64,000 nucleotides of DNA, from assembly GCA_003577275.1 (NCBI GenBank), contig QEVO01000009.1, forward strand, positions 1-64,000, written 5' to 3'. This DNA comes from Pseudomonadota bacterium. Its GTDB lineage: Bacteria; Pseudomonadota; Alphaproteobacteria; Sphingomonadales; Govanellaceae. Positions 116 to 9,195 of this stretch are shown here, in pieces; the stretch's first letter is position 1; every line of letters starts with the position of its first letter. The position numbers and the translations under genes were made by a program. Under the pieces are notes generated by a model that was not told the DNA's origin, made no database searches, and saw nothing but the letters and a program-made list of their open reading frames with translations.

Positions 116-1702
116 TTATCGCGGGATCTCGATGCCGGCGGCCTCGCGATCCCAGGTGTTATCATTCAGCGGGTTGACCCGCAGCTCCACTTTGCGCACG
201 TGCTGCGTGGACGGCGTGCGCGGCAGGGTGTCGACAAATTCGATATAGCGGGGCACCATGAAACGGGGCATGCGCGGGATGAGAAAACGGATGAGCTCCT
301 CCGGCGTCAACGTCGAACCTGGCCGGCGGGTGGCGACGATCTTTACTTCATCCTCGCCATGCTCGGAGGGCACGCCGATGGCGGCAACGCCGGTCAAATC
401 GGGATGCTGGGAGACGATCGCCTCGACCTCGAACGAGGAAATATTTTCGCCCCGGCGGCGCATGTAATCACGCTTGCGGTCGACGAAATAATGATTGCCA
501 TCGGCATCGCGGCGCATGGCGTCGCCGGTGTGCAGCCAGCCGTTGCGCCAAGCCTCCCAGGTTTTTTCCGGTTTGCCGAAATAGCCTTGGCTTAGCGTCC
601 ACGGCTGGCTGGTGCGGACAATGAGCTCGCCCACCTCGCCCACCGGCACTTCATAATCCAGATCATCGACGATCCGCACCTCATAGCCCGGCTTGACCTT
701 GCCGCAACTGGTGAAATTATCTGTAACGTTGTTACGGCCCAAGGGAACGCCCGCCTCGGTCATGCCGAAATGGGTGTTGACGATGACGTTGAATCGCTTG
801 CGGAAGGCGTCGATGTCGCTGATCATGGTGACGTATTTCAGGCTGTGTTTTTTATCGTCGTCGGATGGCGGCAGCGCCAGCACCCATTTCGCCATCGCCG
901 GCAACAAAATACCGACCGTGCATTTATAGGTGTCGACATCGCGCCAGAAATCCTGGGTCTTGAACTGCTCGCGGATGATCACCCTGCCGCCGAATGCGCC
1001 CATCGCCAGGAACGGCACCTTGCCGGTGCCGTGAAACATGGGAAACGGCGCGTAAAACGCATCGTCCGGCGTGAGATAATTCAAGGTCTGGATGGAATTC
1101 ATGTAATAGCCCCAGGGAATCATCACGCCTTTTGATGGTCCGGTGGTGCCGCCGGTGTAGAGGATGCCGGCCAGATTCCAGGGCTTGGGCGCCTCCACCT
1201 CCTCCATGCCGGTCGTCGACGACAGCAAGTCATCGCCGTCAACGATATTTTTATTCAGCTTCGGCAGATCAGCCTTGGCCGACATGACGATCACGGATTC
1301 CAGATTAGGCAGACGATCCGCAATATCAATCAGACGGTCCAAATAGCGGTCATCGATCAGCAACACCTTGGCCCCGGAGTCCGCGATGATGTAGTGCAGC
1401 ATATCGCCAAGATAATTGGTGTTGATCGGCACCTCGATCGCTTTGAGCCAGGACAGGCCCAGCCAGGACGCCGCGGTGTTGATCGCCGGCGGCATGAAGA
1501 TGGCCACCCGATCGCCCTCCGCCACGCCCAAACTGCGGTAGACTTGCGCCCATTTCATTACCAGATGATGGAACCGCTGATAGCTGTATGACTCTCCATC
1601 GACTTCCTCGACAAAGCTGCGATCCGGCGTGGCCGCCGCCCGCCGGGCGAGAATGAGCGGCAACGTGTCCTTGGGGCCGATCTCTACCTGCAAGCTCGTC
1701 AT
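116..1702 (-). CDS. AMP-forming acyl-CoA ligase (CaiC-like)
   Basis: About 528 aa, ANL superfamily. The adenylation signatures are visible: phosphate loop YTGGTTGPSKG, HFGMTEAG, and the hinge region DRKRDYMRRRGENISSFEVE typical of crotonobetaine/carnitine-CoA ligase relatives. Family members activate a carboxylate as acyl-AMP and then acyl-CoA. The ATG at 1702 is chosen because AAGGAG lies 8 nt upstream; an upstream in-frame ATG has no such site. Oddity: the C-terminal A10 motif, normally PxTxxxK, reads LPRTPSTQHVRK, placing His (about residue 501) where the catalytic Lys is expected, so the adenylation half-reaction may be impaired or the substrate unusual. The other ligase in the operon keeps the Lys. 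Substrate unknown. Confidence 0.88.
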   Translation of the reverse strand: MTSLQVEIGPKDTLPLILARRAAATPDRSFVEEVDGESYSYQRFHHLVMKWAQVYRSLGVAEGDRVAIFMPPAINTAASWLGLSWLKAIEVPINTNYLGDMLHYIIADSGAKVLLIDDRYLDRLIDIADRLPNLESVIVMSAKADLPKLNKNIVDGDDLLSSTTGMEEVEAPKPWNLAGILYTGGTTGPSKGVMIPWGYYMNSIQTLNYLTPDDAFYAPFPMFHGTGKVPFLAMGAFGGRVIIREQFKTQDFWRDVDTYKCTVGILLPAMAKWVLALPPSDDDKKHSLKYVTMISDIDAFRKRFNVIVNTHFGMTEAGVPLGRNNVTDNFTSCGKVKPGYEVRIVDDLDYEVPVGEVGELIVRTSQPWTLSQGYFGKPEKTWEAWRNGWLHTGDAMRRDADGNHYFVDRKRDYMRRRGENISSFEVEAIVSQHPDLTGVAAIGVPSEHGEDEVKIVATRRPGSTLTPEELIRFLIPRMPRFMVPRYIEFVDTLPRTPSTQHVRKVELRVNPLNDNTWDREAAGIEIPR

Positions 1703-1728
1703 GATGAGTCTCCTTCGATAAAGCGTAC

Positions 1729-2421
1729 CTAACACCGAGCCTGATCATGGACGCGCGCCAGCGCGCCGCAAGAATAGGCCGGGCGAATGGTAAAGGCGGA
1801 TATTTTCGATGCTTCGTACTGTTTCTTTTCCTGCGCGAACGCCTTGGTATGCGCAAAATCCTGATGTCCCCAGAGCATTGCCTTGCTGGCGTAAACTTCC
1901 ACCATCAGGTAGCGCTGCGGCGTATCCGTCCGATACATGTCGGCATAGAGAAAACCGGGCTCCTTGGCTGACACCTTCTCGCCCACGCGGCCAATCGCTC
2001 TTAGAAATTGCTCCTCCTGGCCGGGCAATATATAGGCGGCGGCAAAAGCGCCGAAAGGCGCATCACTGATATACCGGCTGCCGCCAAACACGGCGGAATC
2101 GAACGGCTCCGTCAGCGGCCGGCGGCGCATCGGCGGGTCGGAATAGACGGGATAGATGAACTCCCGGCGGCTCTCGGGCATGAGCGCGCCGAATATGACG
2201 CTTAAAGACTCATTCTCTCGGGGCACCGCATCGCCCTTATACATTTCCACCAGCAGAAACTTGTTGGCGTGCTTGGTGAAATAAAGATCGACATAAAGGC
2301 AGATATCCGACGCCGCCGCGCCCTTGGCGTAAGCGCGAAGATTATCCGCGAAGGCGTCCGCCTCGCCCGCCGGCGCAAACAGCACCGATATCCGGCCCTT
2401 CATGTCATGCCCGCCCGTCAT
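1729..2421 (-). CDS. Tandem ABM-like (dimeric alpha/beta barrel) protein
   Basis: 230 aa with two repeats that each resemble an antibiotic-biosynthesis-monooxygenase (ABM) ferredoxin-like fold, roughly residues 8-100 and 115-215. The second repeat shows the typical pattern: LYADMYR, then YLMVEVYAS, then WGHQDFAHTKAF. ABM domains usually dimerise and act as cofactor-free oxygenases, isomerases or heme-handling proteins; a single-chain pair makes an internal pseudo-dimer. The start overlaps the DUF35 stop as ATGA, implying translational coupling; an in-frame ATG at 2403 is an alternative. It lies between the DUF35 gene and ligase 1 in the acyl-CoA operon. No specific function can be assigned. 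Confidence 0.6.
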   Translation of the reverse strand: MTGGHDMKGRISVLFAPAGEADAFADNLRAYAKGAAASDICLYVDLYFTKHANKFLLVEMYKGDAVPRENESLSVIFGALMPESRREFIYPVYSDPPMRRRPLTEPFDSAVFGGSRYISDAPFGAFAAAYILPGQEEQFLRAIGRVGEKVSAKEPGFLYADMYRTDTPQRYLMVEVYASKAMLWGHQDFAHTKAFAQEKKQYEASKISAFTIRPAYSCGALARVHDQARC

Positions 2422-2813
2422 GCCGGCGCCGGTTGGAAGCGCGGCAACGTGACGGTTGGCGTGACGCGATCAAAACTGACCGTCATGGCCATGCCGCAAC
2501 GCAGTGTTTTATGATCGCCGGGCATCGCGGTGAGAATCTGCGGGCCTTCATCGCACCGGGTCAAGGTGATGGTATAGGGCACCTGCTCGGCCAGTGCGGG
2601 ATTCAAGCCATAGTGCACCACGGTGAAGGACACCAGCGCGCCCTTCCCGCCCGATTGCCGCCAAGTCAAGGGAGCGCCGCAAATGCAATGGGCGTGCCGG
2701 GGATGATGCCATGTCGCGCAAGCCTCGCAAAAGCGCAGCATCAGCGCGCCCTGCGCGGCCGCCTGCCAGTAGGGCTTCGTGTCCGCCGAAGGAGAGGGAA
2801 TGATCATGAACAA
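2418..2813 (-). CDS. DUF35 Zn-ribbon/OB-fold acyl-CoA-binding protein
   Basis: 131 aa. The N-terminal rubredoxin-like zinc ribbon has CEAC near residue 29 and a second CIC pair about 14 residues later. The OB-fold follows (GALVSFTVVHYGLNP, VPYTITLTRCDEGPQILT), as in DUF35 proteins. Family members partner thiolase-like proteins: in the steroid side-chain pathway a DUF35 domain joins Ltp2 to form a retro-aldolase. Here the gene overlaps the stop of the thiolase-like gene by 10 nt and the start of the ABM gene by 4 nt, so the three are tightly coupled. The pairing supports a two-subunit acyl-CoA enzyme; the exact reaction is inferred. Confidence 0.85.
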   Translation of the reverse strand: MFMIIPSPSADTKPYWQAAAQGALMLRFCEACATWHHPRHAHCICGAPLTWRQSGGKGALVSFTVVHYGLNPALAEQVPYTITLTRCDEGPQILTAMPGDHKTLRCGMAMTVSFDRVTPTVTLPRFQPAPA

Positions 2814-3976
2814 ACCTCATGCGACAATAAGGCGACAGCCTGCGCGCCGCCGACGGAGAGCGCGCCAAACCGCGCGTTCTTGACTTGATTGAATGCCTGG
2901 CCCCGCAATTGCCGGACCAATTCGATAACCAGATTCATGCCTTGCAGATAAACCTCCGCCAGCAGACCGCCGCTGGTATTGATAGCGATACCCGGGTCCG
3001 CGATGCGTTCCACCGCTTCGCCAAACCCGCAGAATCCTAAGTTCTCCAGGTCATAAAGCACGGATGAGGACGAGGCGTCGTAAATGCCTAAGACATTGAT
3101 ATCATCATGGCGAATCTTATGGCGGCAGAGCAGGCGATCCATCATGCCGATGCCGATGCGCGGCGGCAATTCGGCGAAATCGAAAAAGAAGTTGCTGTAA
3201 TTGGGCGACAGGCACTGATCCGCGTCCCAAATGTAAACCGGCCGGGTTTTGGCGCGCTGCGCATATTTTTTGCCCACCACCACAAAAGCGCACGCGCCGT
3301 CGGATTCCAGACAAAGATCGGCCTTGCGCAACGGCGTCGCCAGCATGGGGCTTTTCAGATAGCCGTCAAGATCCATCGGCTTGTCGCGCATCAGGGCATT
3401 GGGGTTGCGTGTCGCATAGTCCCGCTGACGGGTGACAATGGTGCCCAGGGCGCGGATCATCTTATCTTCTGCAATGCCGTGACGCTGCATGTAGGCCTGC
3501 GCCCACAGACCGAAAGCGCAGGATGGCGCGGCCATGCCGTAAGGTCCGGTGAATTCGCCGCCAAAGGGGCTCGCCCCTTCGGCCAGCACATTGCCCTCCT
3601 CATTGCGCGGCGGTATGGGCATATGGCCCAAACGCAGCATCGAGCGGCCGTTGAACGAACGATAGCAGACAATGGCTTCCGCCTGTCCCAGCGCAATGGC
3701 CGAGGCGGCGGCCGCCAGCAAGGTGACCGCCGATGACGCGCCGCTGGCGCTATCCAAGGCGAGGCGCACCTCGGTGATGCCCAATGCTTCGGCGACGCTG
3801 CTTTGCGCCACGTTGTCGAACGAGAAGCGCATCAAGCCGTCAATATCAGACGCCGCCAGACCGGCGTCGGCGATGGCCAGGCGAATGGCGTTGAGCGCCA
3901 TGTCGATCTCGGTTTTCCCGGATGCCCAGGAATAGTCGCTTTCGCCCACGCCGATAATGGCTGCCGTTTGGCTCAT
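2804..3976 (-). CDS. Thiolase-like lipid-transfer protein (Ltp2-like)
   Basis: 390 aa with the thiolase fold (AAIIGVGESDYSWASGKTE start; NTSGG and SVGGAQ near the C-terminus). The nucleophile motif CaSG of true thiolases reads SASG (Ser76), and the C-terminal CxG is SVGG, so this is not a normal acetyl-CoA acyltransferase. Thiolase homologues without the Cys that are paired with a DUF35 protein include the Ltp2 retro-aldolases of steroid side-chain breakdown, and a DUF35 gene follows directly. A role cleaving a hydroxyacyl-CoA is therefore likely, though other non-thiolytic roles remain possible. The preceding acyl-CoA synthetase gene ends 19 nt upstream. Confidence 0.8.
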   Translation of the reverse strand: MSQTAAIIGVGESDYSWASGKTEIDMALNAIRLAIADAGLAASDIDGLMRFSFDNVAQSSVAEALGITEVRLALDSASGASSAVTLLAAAASAIALGQAEAIVCYRSFNGRSMLRLGHMPIPPRNEEGNVLAEGASPFGGEFTGPYGMAAPSCAFGLWAQAYMQRHGIAEDKMIRALGTIVTRQRDYATRNPNALMRDKPMDLDGYLKSPMLATPLRKADLCLESDGACAFVVVGKKYAQRAKTRPVYIWDADQCLSPNYSNFFFDFAELPPRIGIGMMDRLLCRHKIRHDDINVLGIYDASSSSVLYDLENLGFCGFGEAVERIADPGIAINTSGGLLAEVYLQGMNLVIELVRQLRGQAFNQVKNARFGALSVGGAQAVALLSHEVCS

Positions 3977-3995: not shown

Positions 3996-5585
3996 TTATC
4001 GTTCAACGCGGATCCCCGCCGCCTTGACATCGAATGTCGAAGCCGAGAGGGGAAAATCCTTCAGTTTGTGTTTCTCGATCTTTCCCAACGCCGTGCGCGG
4101 CAACTGCACTCCGGTATCGAAATATCTTGGCACCATGAAGTAGGCCAGATGCCGGGCGCAATGGCTGACCAGCGCCGCATGATCAATGGGCGGCGCGCCG
4201 GGCGACAATTCGAGAAAGGCGCGGACTTCTTCCTCGCCGCCGGGCCCCTCGCGGTATCCCACCACGGCAGCGCCGCTAACCCCGGGATAGTTCTGGAGCA
4301 CGGTTTCCACCTCATAGGTGGATATGTTCTCGCCGCGTCTTTTTAAGGATTCTTTCACCCGGTCGGTGAAATGAAGATACCCTTGTTCGTCCCGCCATCC
4401 CAGATCGCCGGTCTTAAACCAGCCATCCTGGAACGCGCTAGCGGTCGCTTCCGGCATGTTGTAATAGCCCAGCATGCGGTCATAGACATGGTGAGTCTTG
4501 ATCCACCACTCGCCGACTTTCCCCGTCGGCGCGTCCCGCCCTTCCTCATCGACGACGCGCAGCTGATGCCGGGGATTTAGTCGGCCGGCGGTACAGAGCT
4601 TGGCGGGCGCCGGCAGCCCCACCATGGCTGATTCCGTCGCGCCATACCCGGCCACCAGCTTGCAGCCAAACCGCCGCTCAAAGGCGTCAATCATCTCGGT
4701 GGTCACGCCAATGCACATGACGATTTTCAAGGCAATGTCACGGTCGTCAGGCCGCGGCGGCAGCGCGAGCAGGCCGCGCAATAGAAACGGCAAGGCGCTC
4801 CAATGCGTAGCCTTATACTGGTGCAACTCGTTCAGCAAATTCTCGCGGGGGAACTCGCGGCGCACGACGGTCTTTCCGCCGCTGATCAGGCAGCCGAGCG
4901 GCCCGAAGATGATCGCGTTTAAATGAAACAGCGGGTAGAACGTATAAAATACCGAATCTTCATCCAGAAAGACGCTACGGGTGATGTCCCATGATGTCGA
5001 TGATAGCTGCTGATGCGGCAGCACGACGCCTTTAGATACGCCGGTGGTGCCGGAGGTGAACAACACCATCCAGGGGTCGGAGCGTTCCATGGCCAGCTTT
5101 GGCAAAGGGTTCTTTTCCGCCATCAAGTCGGCGTAGCGTTCCTCCTTCGGCTGCGAAGGGATATAATCGCGCCCGACCACGATGATGCGCTCCAATGCAT
5201 TGCCATCGCCCAGGGCTTCGTAAGTACGGCTTAAATACTGGCTCTCCGCGATCAGGTAGCGCGCCTTGGTGATGGCGAAAACATGCGCCAGGCTTTGCCC
5301 CTTGAGCGCCGGATTGGTGGGCACAGCCAGCGCGCCGATATAGGCCAGGGCAAACATGCTCACCAGTATTTCCGGCTCATTGCCCATCAGGATGACGATG
5401 GGATCTCCCTTGCCGACGCCGCGTTTGGCCAGCGCCGCGGCCAAAGCCATGGATTGATCGTAAAGGCTGGCGTAAGTTAGGGTGACGTCATCAAACACCG
5501 CCAATACCCGCTCGCCATCCCGGCGCGCCTTGTCGGCCAGCAGCAGGGGCATTGGCACGGGTCGCTCTAGTTCTGGTTCCATCAT
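3996..5585 (-). CDS. AMP-forming acyl-CoA synthetase
   Basis: 529 aa, ANL superfamily. Visible motifs are FTSGTTGVSKG (phosphate loop), GYGATES, the TGDLGWRDEQGYLHFTDR region, and LPRTALGKIEKHKL, which carries the catalytic Lys at about residue 502. It should convert a carboxylic acid to its CoA thioester. It is the first enzyme gene after the TetR-hotdog regulator, with a gap of 68 nt, and leads into the thiolase-like gene. Its hinge (RVKESLKRRGENISTYEVE) resembles that of ligase 1, so the two may be paralogues acting on related substrates or on successive intermediates. Substrate not determinable. Confidence 0.88.
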   Translation of the reverse strand: MMEPELERPVPMPLLLADKARRDGERVLAVFDDVTLTYASLYDQSMALAAALAKRGVGKGDPIVILMGNEPEILVSMFALAYIGALAVPTNPALKGQSLAHVFAITKARYLIAESQYLSRTYEALGDGNALERIIVVGRDYIPSQPKEERYADLMAEKNPLPKLAMERSDPWMVLFTSGTTGVSKGVVLPHQQLSSTSWDITRSVFLDEDSVFYTFYPLFHLNAIIFGPLGCLISGGKTVVRREFPRENLLNELHQYKATHWSALPFLLRGLLALPPRPDDRDIALKIVMCIGVTTEMIDAFERRFGCKLVAGYGATESAMVGLPAPAKLCTAGRLNPRHQLRVVDEEGRDAPTGKVGEWWIKTHHVYDRMLGYYNMPEATASAFQDGWFKTGDLGWRDEQGYLHFTDRVKESLKRRGENISTYEVETVLQNYPGVSGAAVVGYREGPGGEEEVRAFLELSPGAPPIDHAALVSHCARHLAYFMVPRYFDTGVQLPRTALGKIEKHKLKDFPLSASTFDVKAAGIRVER

Positions 5586-5653: not shown

Positions 5654-6646
5654 TTATTTGCCGTAGATGGCCCGCGTCAGGCACAGCGCTTCCTGGTGGT
5701 CTTCGTGCGTTACCTTGACGTCCCAAATCTCTATCTTGCGGGTAAACAGGCTGCGCTCTGCCTGGCACAAGATAACGCCGCCGACGATGGGAGGAAAAAA
5801 GCGCAGGGACAAATCCTGCAGCACCCATTCGCCCTTGCGCGGCTGCGGCACCTCGCGGAAAAAACTCTCGCAGGTCCAGATGACCAGGCCGGCAATGGCC
5901 GCCGTCATCTGGTGGGTGCCGTAAAGAATGGAATGTGTGGGCACATGGGCGCGGGTCATCACTTTGTGCTCACCCACCGAGCAGGTTTCAAAGCGCCATT
6001 CGCGGGCCACCTCCATGCTGTCGGCGCGCGAGACATAGTGTTTTACCACTTTATCCTTGCTGCCCCCCGGCGGCACGGCGCTGGTCAGAAAGTTCAAGAT
6101 ATGGCCCGTCAGCTCTTCCGCCGATAACGGACCAAAAGGGCGATACCAATAAGGAATCTCGTTAAGCGCGCCCCAGATCAGGTGCTTGAGAATCTTTGGC
6201 GGTATTTCCCGGGTGATCTGATTTTTTTGCTGCGCTTCCTCGATGGCCCGCGACATCACCTCGTCATGATGGTGCCACATTTCCTGCAGCGCCGGACTAT
6301 GGGGCAGGCTGGCGTCATGCGCGCTGCGCATCGCCAAGCGAAACGAGGACGGAAAATACCGCGTGGCGTCCAATTGCAGGCGAATGAAACCTTCGATTCG
6401 TTTCGTTGGCGGGTCTTGCGGCCGAACGAAGGCGGCAAAATTGCCCTTGAAGAAGTCCAGCAGACGCTGGTTGATGCCCTCCAACAGATCGGCCTTGCTT
6501 TTGGCGTGGGCGTAGAGCGTGGGGCGGGTGATTTTCAGCGCATCGGTGATGTCGGTGATGGAAGTGCCGTCATAGCCTTTTTCGGCAAATAGATCGGCGG
6601 CGACATCGAGTATCTTATCGCGTGATATGCGTCGCGGGGCGGCCAT
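5654..6646 (-). CDS. TetR-family regulator fused to a hotdog (PaaI-like) domain
   Basis: 330 aa. Residues 7-53 are a TetR helix-turn-helix (KILDVAADLFAEKGYDGTS then TRPTLYAHAKSK). Residues 60-190 are the usual helical ligand and dimerisation region. After a PPGG linker, residues 198-330 look like a hotdog thioesterase domain: THSILYGTHQMTAAIAGL, then LQDLSLRFFPPI and IWDVKVTHED. The His of the PaaI motif is present (H245), but the acidic residue expected about nine positions later is Leu, so the domain is probably a binder, not an enzyme. It is the first gene of the acyl-CoA operon and diverges from a TonB receptor. Inference: an acyl-CoA-sensing repressor. Confidence 0.78.
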   Translation of the reverse strand: MAAPRRISRDKILDVAADLFAEKGYDGTSITDITDALKITRPTLYAHAKSKADLLEGINQRLLDFFKGNFAAFVRPQDPPTKRIEGFIRLQLDATRYFPSSFRLAMRSAHDASLPHSPALQEMWHHHDEVMSRAIEEAQQKNQITREIPPKILKHLIWGALNEIPYWYRPFGPLSAEELTGHILNFLTSAVPPGGSKDKVVKHYVSRADSMEVAREWRFETCSVGEHKVMTRAHVPTHSILYGTHQMTAAIAGLVIWTCESFFREVPQPRKGEWVLQDLSLRFFPPIVGGVILCQAERSLFTRKIEIWDVKVTHEDHQEALCLTRAIYGK

Positions 6647-6768: not shown

Positions 6769-6813
6769 ACTGATCGGTTAGTTATTGACACATATTTAAC
6801 TAAACGGTAAGTT
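6769..6813. promoter_or_regulatory. Paired TetR-type operators over a promoter
   Basis: Two copies of a 14-bp near-palindrome lie at 6769-6782 (ACTGATCGGTTAGT) and 6799-6812 (ACTAAACGGTAAGT). Both fit ACTRAWCGGTWAGT, and their centres are exactly 30 bp apart. A TTGACA -35 box lies between them (6785-6790), with a weak -10 (TAAGTT) 17 bp downstream inside the second site, directed toward the TonB receptor. They sit in the divergent spacer between the TetR-hotdog gene and the receptor, which fits repression of one or both by the TetR protein. Binding is inferred. The rest of the 6647-6951 spacer shows nothing else I can name. Confidence 0.6.
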
Positions 6814-6951: not shown

Positions 6952-9195
6952 ATGTCCAACCATTCTCTTGCGATCGAAAACCGTGCAATAGCCGCTGTCG
7001 CCGGCGCTTCTTTGGCGTTGACCGCCAGCGTCGCCTTGTTTCACGCCTACCCCGCCGTGGCGGCCGAGGAAGCTCGGCTGGGGATCGAGGAAATCATCGT
7101 CACCGCGCGCAAACGGGAAGAAAGTCTGCAAACCGTTCCCCTGGCGGTGACCGCGATCAGAGCGGAAGATCTGGAAGTCAGATCCGCCCGCAACATCGCC
7201 GATGTGCTGCGCCTGGCGCCCAACGTCACTTTCGCGGCGGGCGGCGCCGCCGGCGGCTCAGCGGCGCAGGTTTATATTCGCGGCGTCGGTCAGGGCGATT
7301 TCGCCATCACCAGCGACCCCGGCGTCGGCATATACGTGGACGGCGTCTATCTCGGCCGCTCCACCGGCAGCCTCCTTGATGTGCTCGATCTGGAGCGGGT
7401 CGAAGTTTTGCGCGGTCCGCAGGGCACGCTCTTTGGCCGCAACACCGTGGGCGGCGCGGTAAGCTTCACCTCGCAAAAACCGACTGGCGAACTTGGCGGC
7501 TATGTGCAGGCGACCGTGGGGCGTTACAACCGCATCGATGGCCGCGCGTCCCTTGATTTTCCCATCGTCACCGACCGCCTGGCGGCGAAGGTCTCCGTGG
7601 CATCGCTCAATCGCGACGGTTATCAGCGCCGCTCCATCGACGACCTGGACCTGGGCGATCAGGACGCCCTGGTCGGGCGCGCGGTGTTCCTGCTGAACGC
7701 CTCGGAAAATATTGATTTTACCTTGACCGTGGACGGCACAAGACGGCGCGAGGAATCGGTGCCGCAAAGCCTGGTAGGCATCGCCAATACGGCCCTTCTC
7801 GGTCTATATAACGCCACCGTCGGCGCCTCTCTGGGCACGCCACTGACCGCCGCCTACATCACCAATGACCGTTATCTGACCCACGCCACCGGCCCCAGCG
7901 TCAGCAATGTGGACAATTGGGGCGTCTCCGGCGTCATCGACGTTGATCTCTCGCCGGTCAGAATTAAGTCGATCACCAGTTATCGCGATCTGGAGCTGCT
8001 GTTTGCCCGCGAAACCGATGGCTCGCCGCTGCCCTATCTGGAAGTCATCAATGATGACGAGCAGACGCAGTTCAGCCAGGAACTGCAACTGACCACGCCG
8101 CTCTTTAACGACCGCGCCGATCTGCTCGTGGGCCTCTATTACTTCCGCGAACGGGCATCCGATAACAGCATCGCCTGGATCGCCTCGGGCCTGTCCGACT
8201 TCATTCCCATGGACCTGTCCCGGCTTGACAGCAACAACGTCAAAACCAACAGTTACGCGGCCTTCAGCGAGCTGAACGTCAATGTCATCGACAAACTGCG
8301 CTTCACCATCGGCGCTCGCTACACGCACGAGAAAAAAAGCTATGACGTCGTCGCGGTACGGGCAAATTTGGGCACAACATTCGTCGGTCCGCTCAGTCTT
8401 TCTGATGACTGGTCATCCTTTACCCCCAAAGTCAGCCTGGATTTCCAGGCGACGGATTCGGTCATGCTGTACGCCTCCTTCTCCAAGGGCTTCCGCAGCG
8501 GCGGCTTTAACAGCCGCGCCAATTCCAATGTCGATGTCACCAGCTATGATCCGGAAAAGCTCGACAACTTCGAGGTCGGCTTGAAATCCGACCTCCTCGA
8601 CCGCCGCCTGCGTTTCAACGCCACCGCCTTTTACAGCAACTATAAGGATATGCAGGTCAACGTCATCCGTCCGGTGGGCCTCAGCTTCATCAATACCATC
8701 GATAACGCCGCCAAATCCCGCATCAAGGGCGTGGAGCTGGAAGTGGTGGCGGAACCGGCGGAAGGACTGGTGTTCAACGGCGCGGTGGGCTACGCCGATG
8801 CGGAATACCGCAAACTTGATCCGGGCGTGACCTTTACCATCGACAGTAAGTTGATCGAGACGCCGAAATGGACCGCCAACGTCGGCATGCAATATGGCTT
8901 TGCGGTGGGGAATCTTGGCCAGCTCACGTTGCGCGGCGACTACTTCTACCGCAGTCGGGTCTATCACGACGTGTTTAACTCGGAACTTATTGCGCAGCCG
9001 GGCTATAGCCTGGTCAATGCCCGCGCCACCTTGTTGACAGCCAATGACGCGGTGGAGATTGCGGTGTTTGGCACCAATCTGACCAACAAGACCTATAATC
9101 TCTTCGGCGTCAACGCGCTGACGAGCCTTGGCATCGCCTCGGTTCAATATGCCCGGCCACGGGAATGGGGGGTGGAGGCGAAATATCGCTTCTGA
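6952..9195 (+). CDS. TonB-dependent outer-membrane receptor
   Basis: 747 aa. The signal peptide ends near AVAAEE and is followed by a TonB box (EEIIVTARKREES). The plug domain includes ADVLRLAPNV, VYIRGVGQGD and VEVLRGPQGTLFGRN, and the barrel has a C-terminal aromatic end (EWGVEAKYRF). It has the size and layout of sphingomonad/caulobacter-type receptors for organic substrates rather than of siderophore receptors with a FecR partner. GGGAG lies 8 nt before the ATG. It is monocistronic, followed by a terminator. Its position opposite the TetR-hotdog operon suggests it imports the hydrophobic acid or ester degraded by that operon; the ligand is unknown. Confidence 0.93.
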   Translation: MSNHSLAIENRAIAAVAGASLALTASVALFHAYPAVAAEEARLGIEEIIVTARKREESLQTVPLAVTAIRAEDLEVRSARNIADVLRLAPNVTFAAGGAAGGSAAQVYIRGVGQGDFAITSDPGVGIYVDGVYLGRSTGSLLDVLDLERVEVLRGPQGTLFGRNTVGGAVSFTSQKPTGELGGYVQATVGRYNRIDGRASLDFPIVTDRLAAKVSVASLNRDGYQRRSIDDLDLGDQDALVGRAVFLLNASENIDFTLTVDGTRRREESVPQSLVGIANTALLGLYNATVGASLGTPLTAAYITNDRYLTHATGPSVSNVDNWGVSGVIDVDLSPVRIKSITSYRDLELLFARETDGSPLPYLEVINDDEQTQFSQELQLTTPLFNDRADLLVGLYYFRERASDNSIAWIASGLSDFIPMDLSRLDSNNVKTNSYAAFSELNVNVIDKLRFTIGARYTHEKKSYDVVAVRANLGTTFVGPLSLSDDWSSFTPKVSLDFQATDSVMLYASFSKGFRSGGFNSRANSNVDVTSYDPEKLDNFEVGLKSDLLDRRLRFNATAFYSNYKDMQVNVIRPVGLSFINTIDNAAKSRIKGVELEVVAEPAEGLVFNGAVGYADAEYRKLDPGVTFTIDSKLIETPKWTANVGMQYGFAVGNLGQLTLRGDYFYRSRVYHDVFNSELIAQPGYSLVNARATLLTANDAVEIAVFGTNLTNKTYNLFGVNALTSLGIASVQYARPREWGVEAKYRF

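Follow-up and report, generated by a model that had tools for sequence, protein, structure and literature searches.

FapR, the malonyl-CoA repressor of Bacillus and Staphylococcus, is the precedent for a hotdog domain converted into the acyl-CoA sensor of a regulator (PMC516016, PMC3536700). It joins a DeoR-like N-terminal HTH to a C-terminal non-catalytic hotdog, carries no TetR ligand domain, and controls genes of CoA-thioester metabolism, its regulon being that of lipid synthesis. CoA thioesters are also given as ligands of FadR and KstR2 (PMC13176608), which belong with AibR and PfmR to the TetR repressors of TetR_C_24 type. These regulators respond to CoA thioesters, adjoin CoA catabolic operons, and stop after the TetR ligand domain, without a hotdog. 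Mce3R, a TetR repressor tied to steroid metabolism, has a second large C-terminal unit (PMC11667970), which is another TetR; a deltaproteobacterial protein of 396 aa with two TetR units (L063:894-2081) is Mce3R-like. Herein, we describe a gene in which the large C-terminal unit following the TetR repressor is instead a hotdog by homology. No TetR-hotdog regulator was described in the openly accessible literature searched. This agrees with the original prediction, which knew of no such sensor but did not mention that the hotdog-sensor principle is known from FapR. The pairing of TetR and hotdog appears to be new, while the principle had already been set by FapR.

ORF analysis of the window (the whole stretch of 64,000 nucleotides that was analysed) placed the fusion gene (P0001) at 5654..6646 on the minus strand, with its ATG at 6646 and its stop at 5654, as a single uninterrupted frame of 330 codons (330 aa). 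The original prediction had given this span without the strand, and its complete TetR protein at residues 1-190 (6077..6646, minus strand) was borne out. In Pfam, both TetR_N (PF00440, residues 12-56, E 1e-14) and TetR_C_24 (PF17932, residues 78-190, E 2e-14) are complete and above cut-off. This half gave a full-length alignment with the solved regulators PfmR, KstR2 and AibR, and the homology with the TetR_C_24 regulators covers residues 8-188, including the WYRP-G-L motif. AlphaFold modelled it with a pLDDT of mostly 75-97; the nearest structures in Foldseek were 3DCF, AibR-isovaleryl-CoA and KstR2 (E about 1e-8), with PfmR similar and FadR-type regulators lower down the list. Because the domains are complete and the alignment and model lie near AibR, KstR2 and FadR, residues 1-190 are, as judged from sequence and model, a complete repressor of the KstR2/AibR/PfmR/FadR type, the kind that senses acyl-CoAs unaided. 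By analogy with these relatives, the TetR half would itself be expected to respond to acyl-CoA.

The fusion gene heads a same-strand operon whose genes overlap or are separated by short gaps. It is followed by acyl-CoA ligase A (AMP-binding, 3996..5585, Pfam and NCBIfam), a thiolase-like or lipid-transfer (Ltp2-like) protein (2804..3976, Thiolase_C_1), a DUF35 or ChsH2-type protein with an OB-fold and zinc ribbon (2418..2813, Pfam), a protein with two ABM (antibiotic biosynthesis monooxygenase) domains (1729..2421, two Pfam stretches) and acyl-CoA ligase B (AMP-binding, 116..1735, Pfam and NCBIfam), all on the minus strand. The two acyl-CoA ligase genes predicted downstream are thus both present. 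For the Ltp2-like protein, the NCBIfam lipid-transfer protein subfamily gave the top score, though under its cut-off. The two ABM domains stand in tandem within one protein of 230 aa, inside the DUF35/Ltp2-like operon. The CoA operon is kept in the sister genome, where ligase B is followed by an MFS transporter and a dihydroxy-acid dehydratase (IlvD; both at G010:C50, L131:13040-16250); these two are missing from the window because it starts at the contig start. The Ltp2/DUF35 pair is reminiscent of steroid side-chain aldolases.

A divergent gene for a TonB-dependent receptor (6952..9195, plus strand, Pfam) lies on the other side of the fusion gene. Between the two genes stand two operator-like near-palindromes, ACTAACCGATCAGT (6769..6782) and ACTTACCGTTTAGT (6799..6812), both listed on the minus strand and 30 bp apart, centre to centre. 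They were the sole exact matches to the pattern in the 3.25 Mb genome, the reversed control gave 0, and both are identical in the sister genome. As pattern matches, they are candidate TetR operators.

The C-terminal half was assigned from profiles and, at low confidence, from the order of secondary-structure elements, as a degenerate PaaI/4HBT-type hotdog domain at residues 197-330 (5657..6058, minus strand). With the limit relaxed to E<=10, Pfam still gave no match for residues ~196-330, and the domain had no significant match in NCBIfam or PDB sequence searches; the best PDB match was a hotdog thioesterase, but at E 0.13. Single-sequence searches covered 398 phylum genomes (E<=0.01), 337 genomes of the class (loose E) and plasmids; outside its own genome they gave only weak matches, most of them chance. 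Those in the class genomes included the PaaI-type hotdogs L144 and L149, both of which seeded profiles; the collected relatives of L149 are clear 4HBT/TIGR00369 proteins. A profile of 51 PaaI-type hotdog sequences scored the domain at 17.1 bits (p=2.1e-7), a score reached by 0/5000 shuffles; as a yardstick, the solved hotdog of FapR scores 14.4 bits on the same profile. Because L149 itself had been picked for likeness, the profile was rebuilt with L149 and L144 left out, using seven members that come from loci of L149 relatives and were not selected for likeness to the fusion protein, and the domain matched it at p=1.4e-7. With all L149-like sequences removed, the match still reached p 4.8e-5, in a collinear profile alignment of 104 columns. 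When a pool of 4789 ORFs was searched with the hotdog profile, the sole match was the orthologue of the fusion protein (E 0.003). Profile-profile comparison (hhalign) returned a probability of 74-93%. The own-family PF03061 hotdog profile alone was set aside as too diverse to decide (p 0.007, with 42/5000 shuffles equally high).

Structure prediction, as proposed with the original prediction, was mostly confident for the TetR half and not confident for the hotdog half. Both the full-length protein and the C-terminal half were modelled with AlphaFold, and the pLDDT of the hotdog half was about 35-40, below 50. The alignment of the C-terminal half comprised just two near-identical sequences and no hotdog sequences, and its model had a pLDDT of 39; viral contigs were scanned for hotdog sequences to deepen it, and none were found. 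The predicted order of elements, E-E-H-E-E-E-E (strand/helix), is that of a hotdog, at low confidence, and Foldseek matches to this low-confidence model were not significant. The hotdog originally placed at residues 198-330 has profile homology in its favour (p in the 1e-7 range), and neither a Pfam match nor a confident fold. We consider it well supported by homology that residues ~197-330 are a PaaI/4HBT-type hotdog, with a fold that is predicted only.

Residues ~244-330 align with the PaaI/YdiI/EntH-type hotdog thioesterases (TIGR00369, PF03061). Unlike these enzymes, the fusion hotdog sits behind a TetR, is missed by Pfam and NCBIfam models, and lacks the catalytic acid, the HGG/HAG His and the FTT motif; the alignment shows other residues at the LADT acid, at this His and at the signature positions FTT and N. 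In the best profile register, I256 takes the place of the LADT Asp and M247 that of the motif His. Before residue 249 or so the alignment is weak, which leaves the position of the His uncertain. No Asp or Glu occurs at 241-259 in any register, and the nearest acid, E260, lies one helical turn further along. PaaI/4HBT enzymes have an Asp or Glu in the helix after HGG/HAG; here the position is Ile256 in the best register and Leu254 in the original one. The proposal that Leu replaces the acid was right about the loss, which is seen in every plausible register, and probably not about the residue. The PaaI His said to be kept as H245 is doubtful, and both assignments are probably two residues off. 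Since Asp and Glu are absent from 241-259 while structural positions, among others P267, L279, G290, A296, R303, W308 and D309, are retained, the domain fits a non-catalytic, degenerate hotdog.

By sequence, the fusion protein is not a FapR. Its HTH is TetR_N rather than DeoR-like, it has the additional TetR ligand domain, and a direct comparison of the two hotdogs showed no sequence similarity (p 0.11), although they score similarly on the PaaI profile; no FapR model was among its NCBIfam matches.

An orthologue 98% identical to the fusion protein occurs in the Sphingomonadales MAG L008 (JACFMS010000003.1), which was counted with G010:C50 as one genome. At the locus, the DNA of the two genomes is about 93% identical, the frame is the same in both, and the changes are mostly synonymous; for this reason a sequencing or assembly artefact was ruled out. 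Between them, dN/dS was 0.009/0.236 for the TetR half and 0.019/0.398 for the hotdog half. These ratios, about 0.04, indicate strong purifying selection on both halves, and selection on the hotdog half suggests that this domain does something.

A search for the same architecture found the fusion in the sister genome only. Searches of 399 genomes of the order and 172 of the class gave no further case, and neither did a pattern scan across 84,980 species, which detects close relatives only. Therefore, the fusion is narrow, confined to one genus as far as sampled, and seen in two genomes. No TetR-hotdog fusion was present at the loci of four Ltp2-like homologues or at nine PaaI hotdog loci (eight L149-like and that of L144), and no TetR directly adjoined any L149-like gene at the eight L149-like loci. 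Long TetR ORFs (L206, L207, L208, L031, L040, L041, L043, L059, L065, L073 and L088) were rejected as further cases; none has a hotdog, and most of their extra length comes from read-through upstream or from low-complexity tails. At L170 (about 1500-2870, G913:C20), three PaaI-type hotdog domains appear near one another in two frames that overlap, and probably make up a tandem cluster of hotdog genes.

With moderate confidence, we favour a local acyl-CoA-responsive TetR repressor that acquired a C-terminal non-catalytic PaaI-type hotdog as an accessory module for ligand binding or dimerisation. For repression, ligand and hotdog role, we infer the following course. A repressor dimer would occupy the pair of operator-like sites that lie between the regulator gene and the divergent gene of the TonB receptor, and would keep expression low for the receptor, for the regulator itself and for the ligase/thiolase/DUF35 operon. 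Upon substrate entry, the ligases of the operon would convert the substrate to a CoA thioester, which would bind the regulator and release it from DNA. The hotdog would serve CoA-thioester binding, stronger dimerisation, or both, beside the intact TetR pocket. Against this account stand the lack of a Pfam match, the unconfident hotdog model, the occurrence in two genomes only, and operator sites that are pattern matches. A bolder form of it, possible but less likely than not, is that the degenerate hotdog is the acyl-CoA sensor or a second one, an effector domain recruited independently of FapR in a protein with two CoA-thioester pockets. The original prediction had taken this course, with a regulator that senses acyl-CoA through a recycled enzyme domain. 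The degenerate hotdog, the CoA operon and the selection agree with it, but the hotdog is no more than a candidate sensor, and the prediction had not weighed the complete ligand domain of the TetR half, of a family (KstR2, AibR, FadR) that binds acyl-CoAs unaided. A full ligand domain of acyl-CoA type is already present in the TetR half, so a sensing role for the hotdog is not required.

The chief rival, possible if somewhat doubtful, takes this further: the TetR pocket alone would sense acyl-CoA, as in KstR2, AibR and FadR, and the hotdog would be a passenger for dimerisation or stability only. TetR_C_24 is complete, its confident model is close to AibR and KstR2, and these relatives respond to CoA thioesters without a hotdog. 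However, the hotdog half is selected as strongly as the TetR half, with the frame kept in both genomes, whereas drift would be expected of a pure passenger; a role in dimerisation is still compatible with selection. That the C-terminal 135 residues have another or a novel fold is unlikely. The absence of a Pfam match at E<=10 and AlphaFold models with pLDDT <50 would fit such a fold, but the profile matches in the expected register with p-values of 1e-7, the 0/5000 shuffles, the hhalign probability of up to 93% and the E-E-H-E-E-E-E order, predicted from an alignment without hotdog sequences, argue for a hotdog. Less probable still is a hotdog that remains a thioesterase through other residues (e.g. 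E260 or H245), making the protein both a regulator and an enzyme, one that would clear its own inducer. The acid position does vary among hotdog thioesterases, as between Asp17 in Pseudomonas and Glu73 in Arthrobacter (PMC516016), and E260 lies on the same predicted helix; yet none of the signature positions (LADT acid, HGG/HAG His, FTT, N) is retained in the alignment.

The fusion gene draws attention to an unassigned catabolic operon with two ligases, an Ltp2-like thiolase, DUF35, a double-ABM protein and a TonB receptor. If the repressor does carry a CoA-thioester-binding hotdog beside its TetR pocket, it would give biosensor design a natural switch with two CoA-thioester inputs, and its two pockets could integrate two intermediates of one pathway. 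It would also represent a second, independent recruitment of a hotdog, onto a repressor that already owned an acyl-CoA pocket, and would thus bear on how enzyme domains become sensors.
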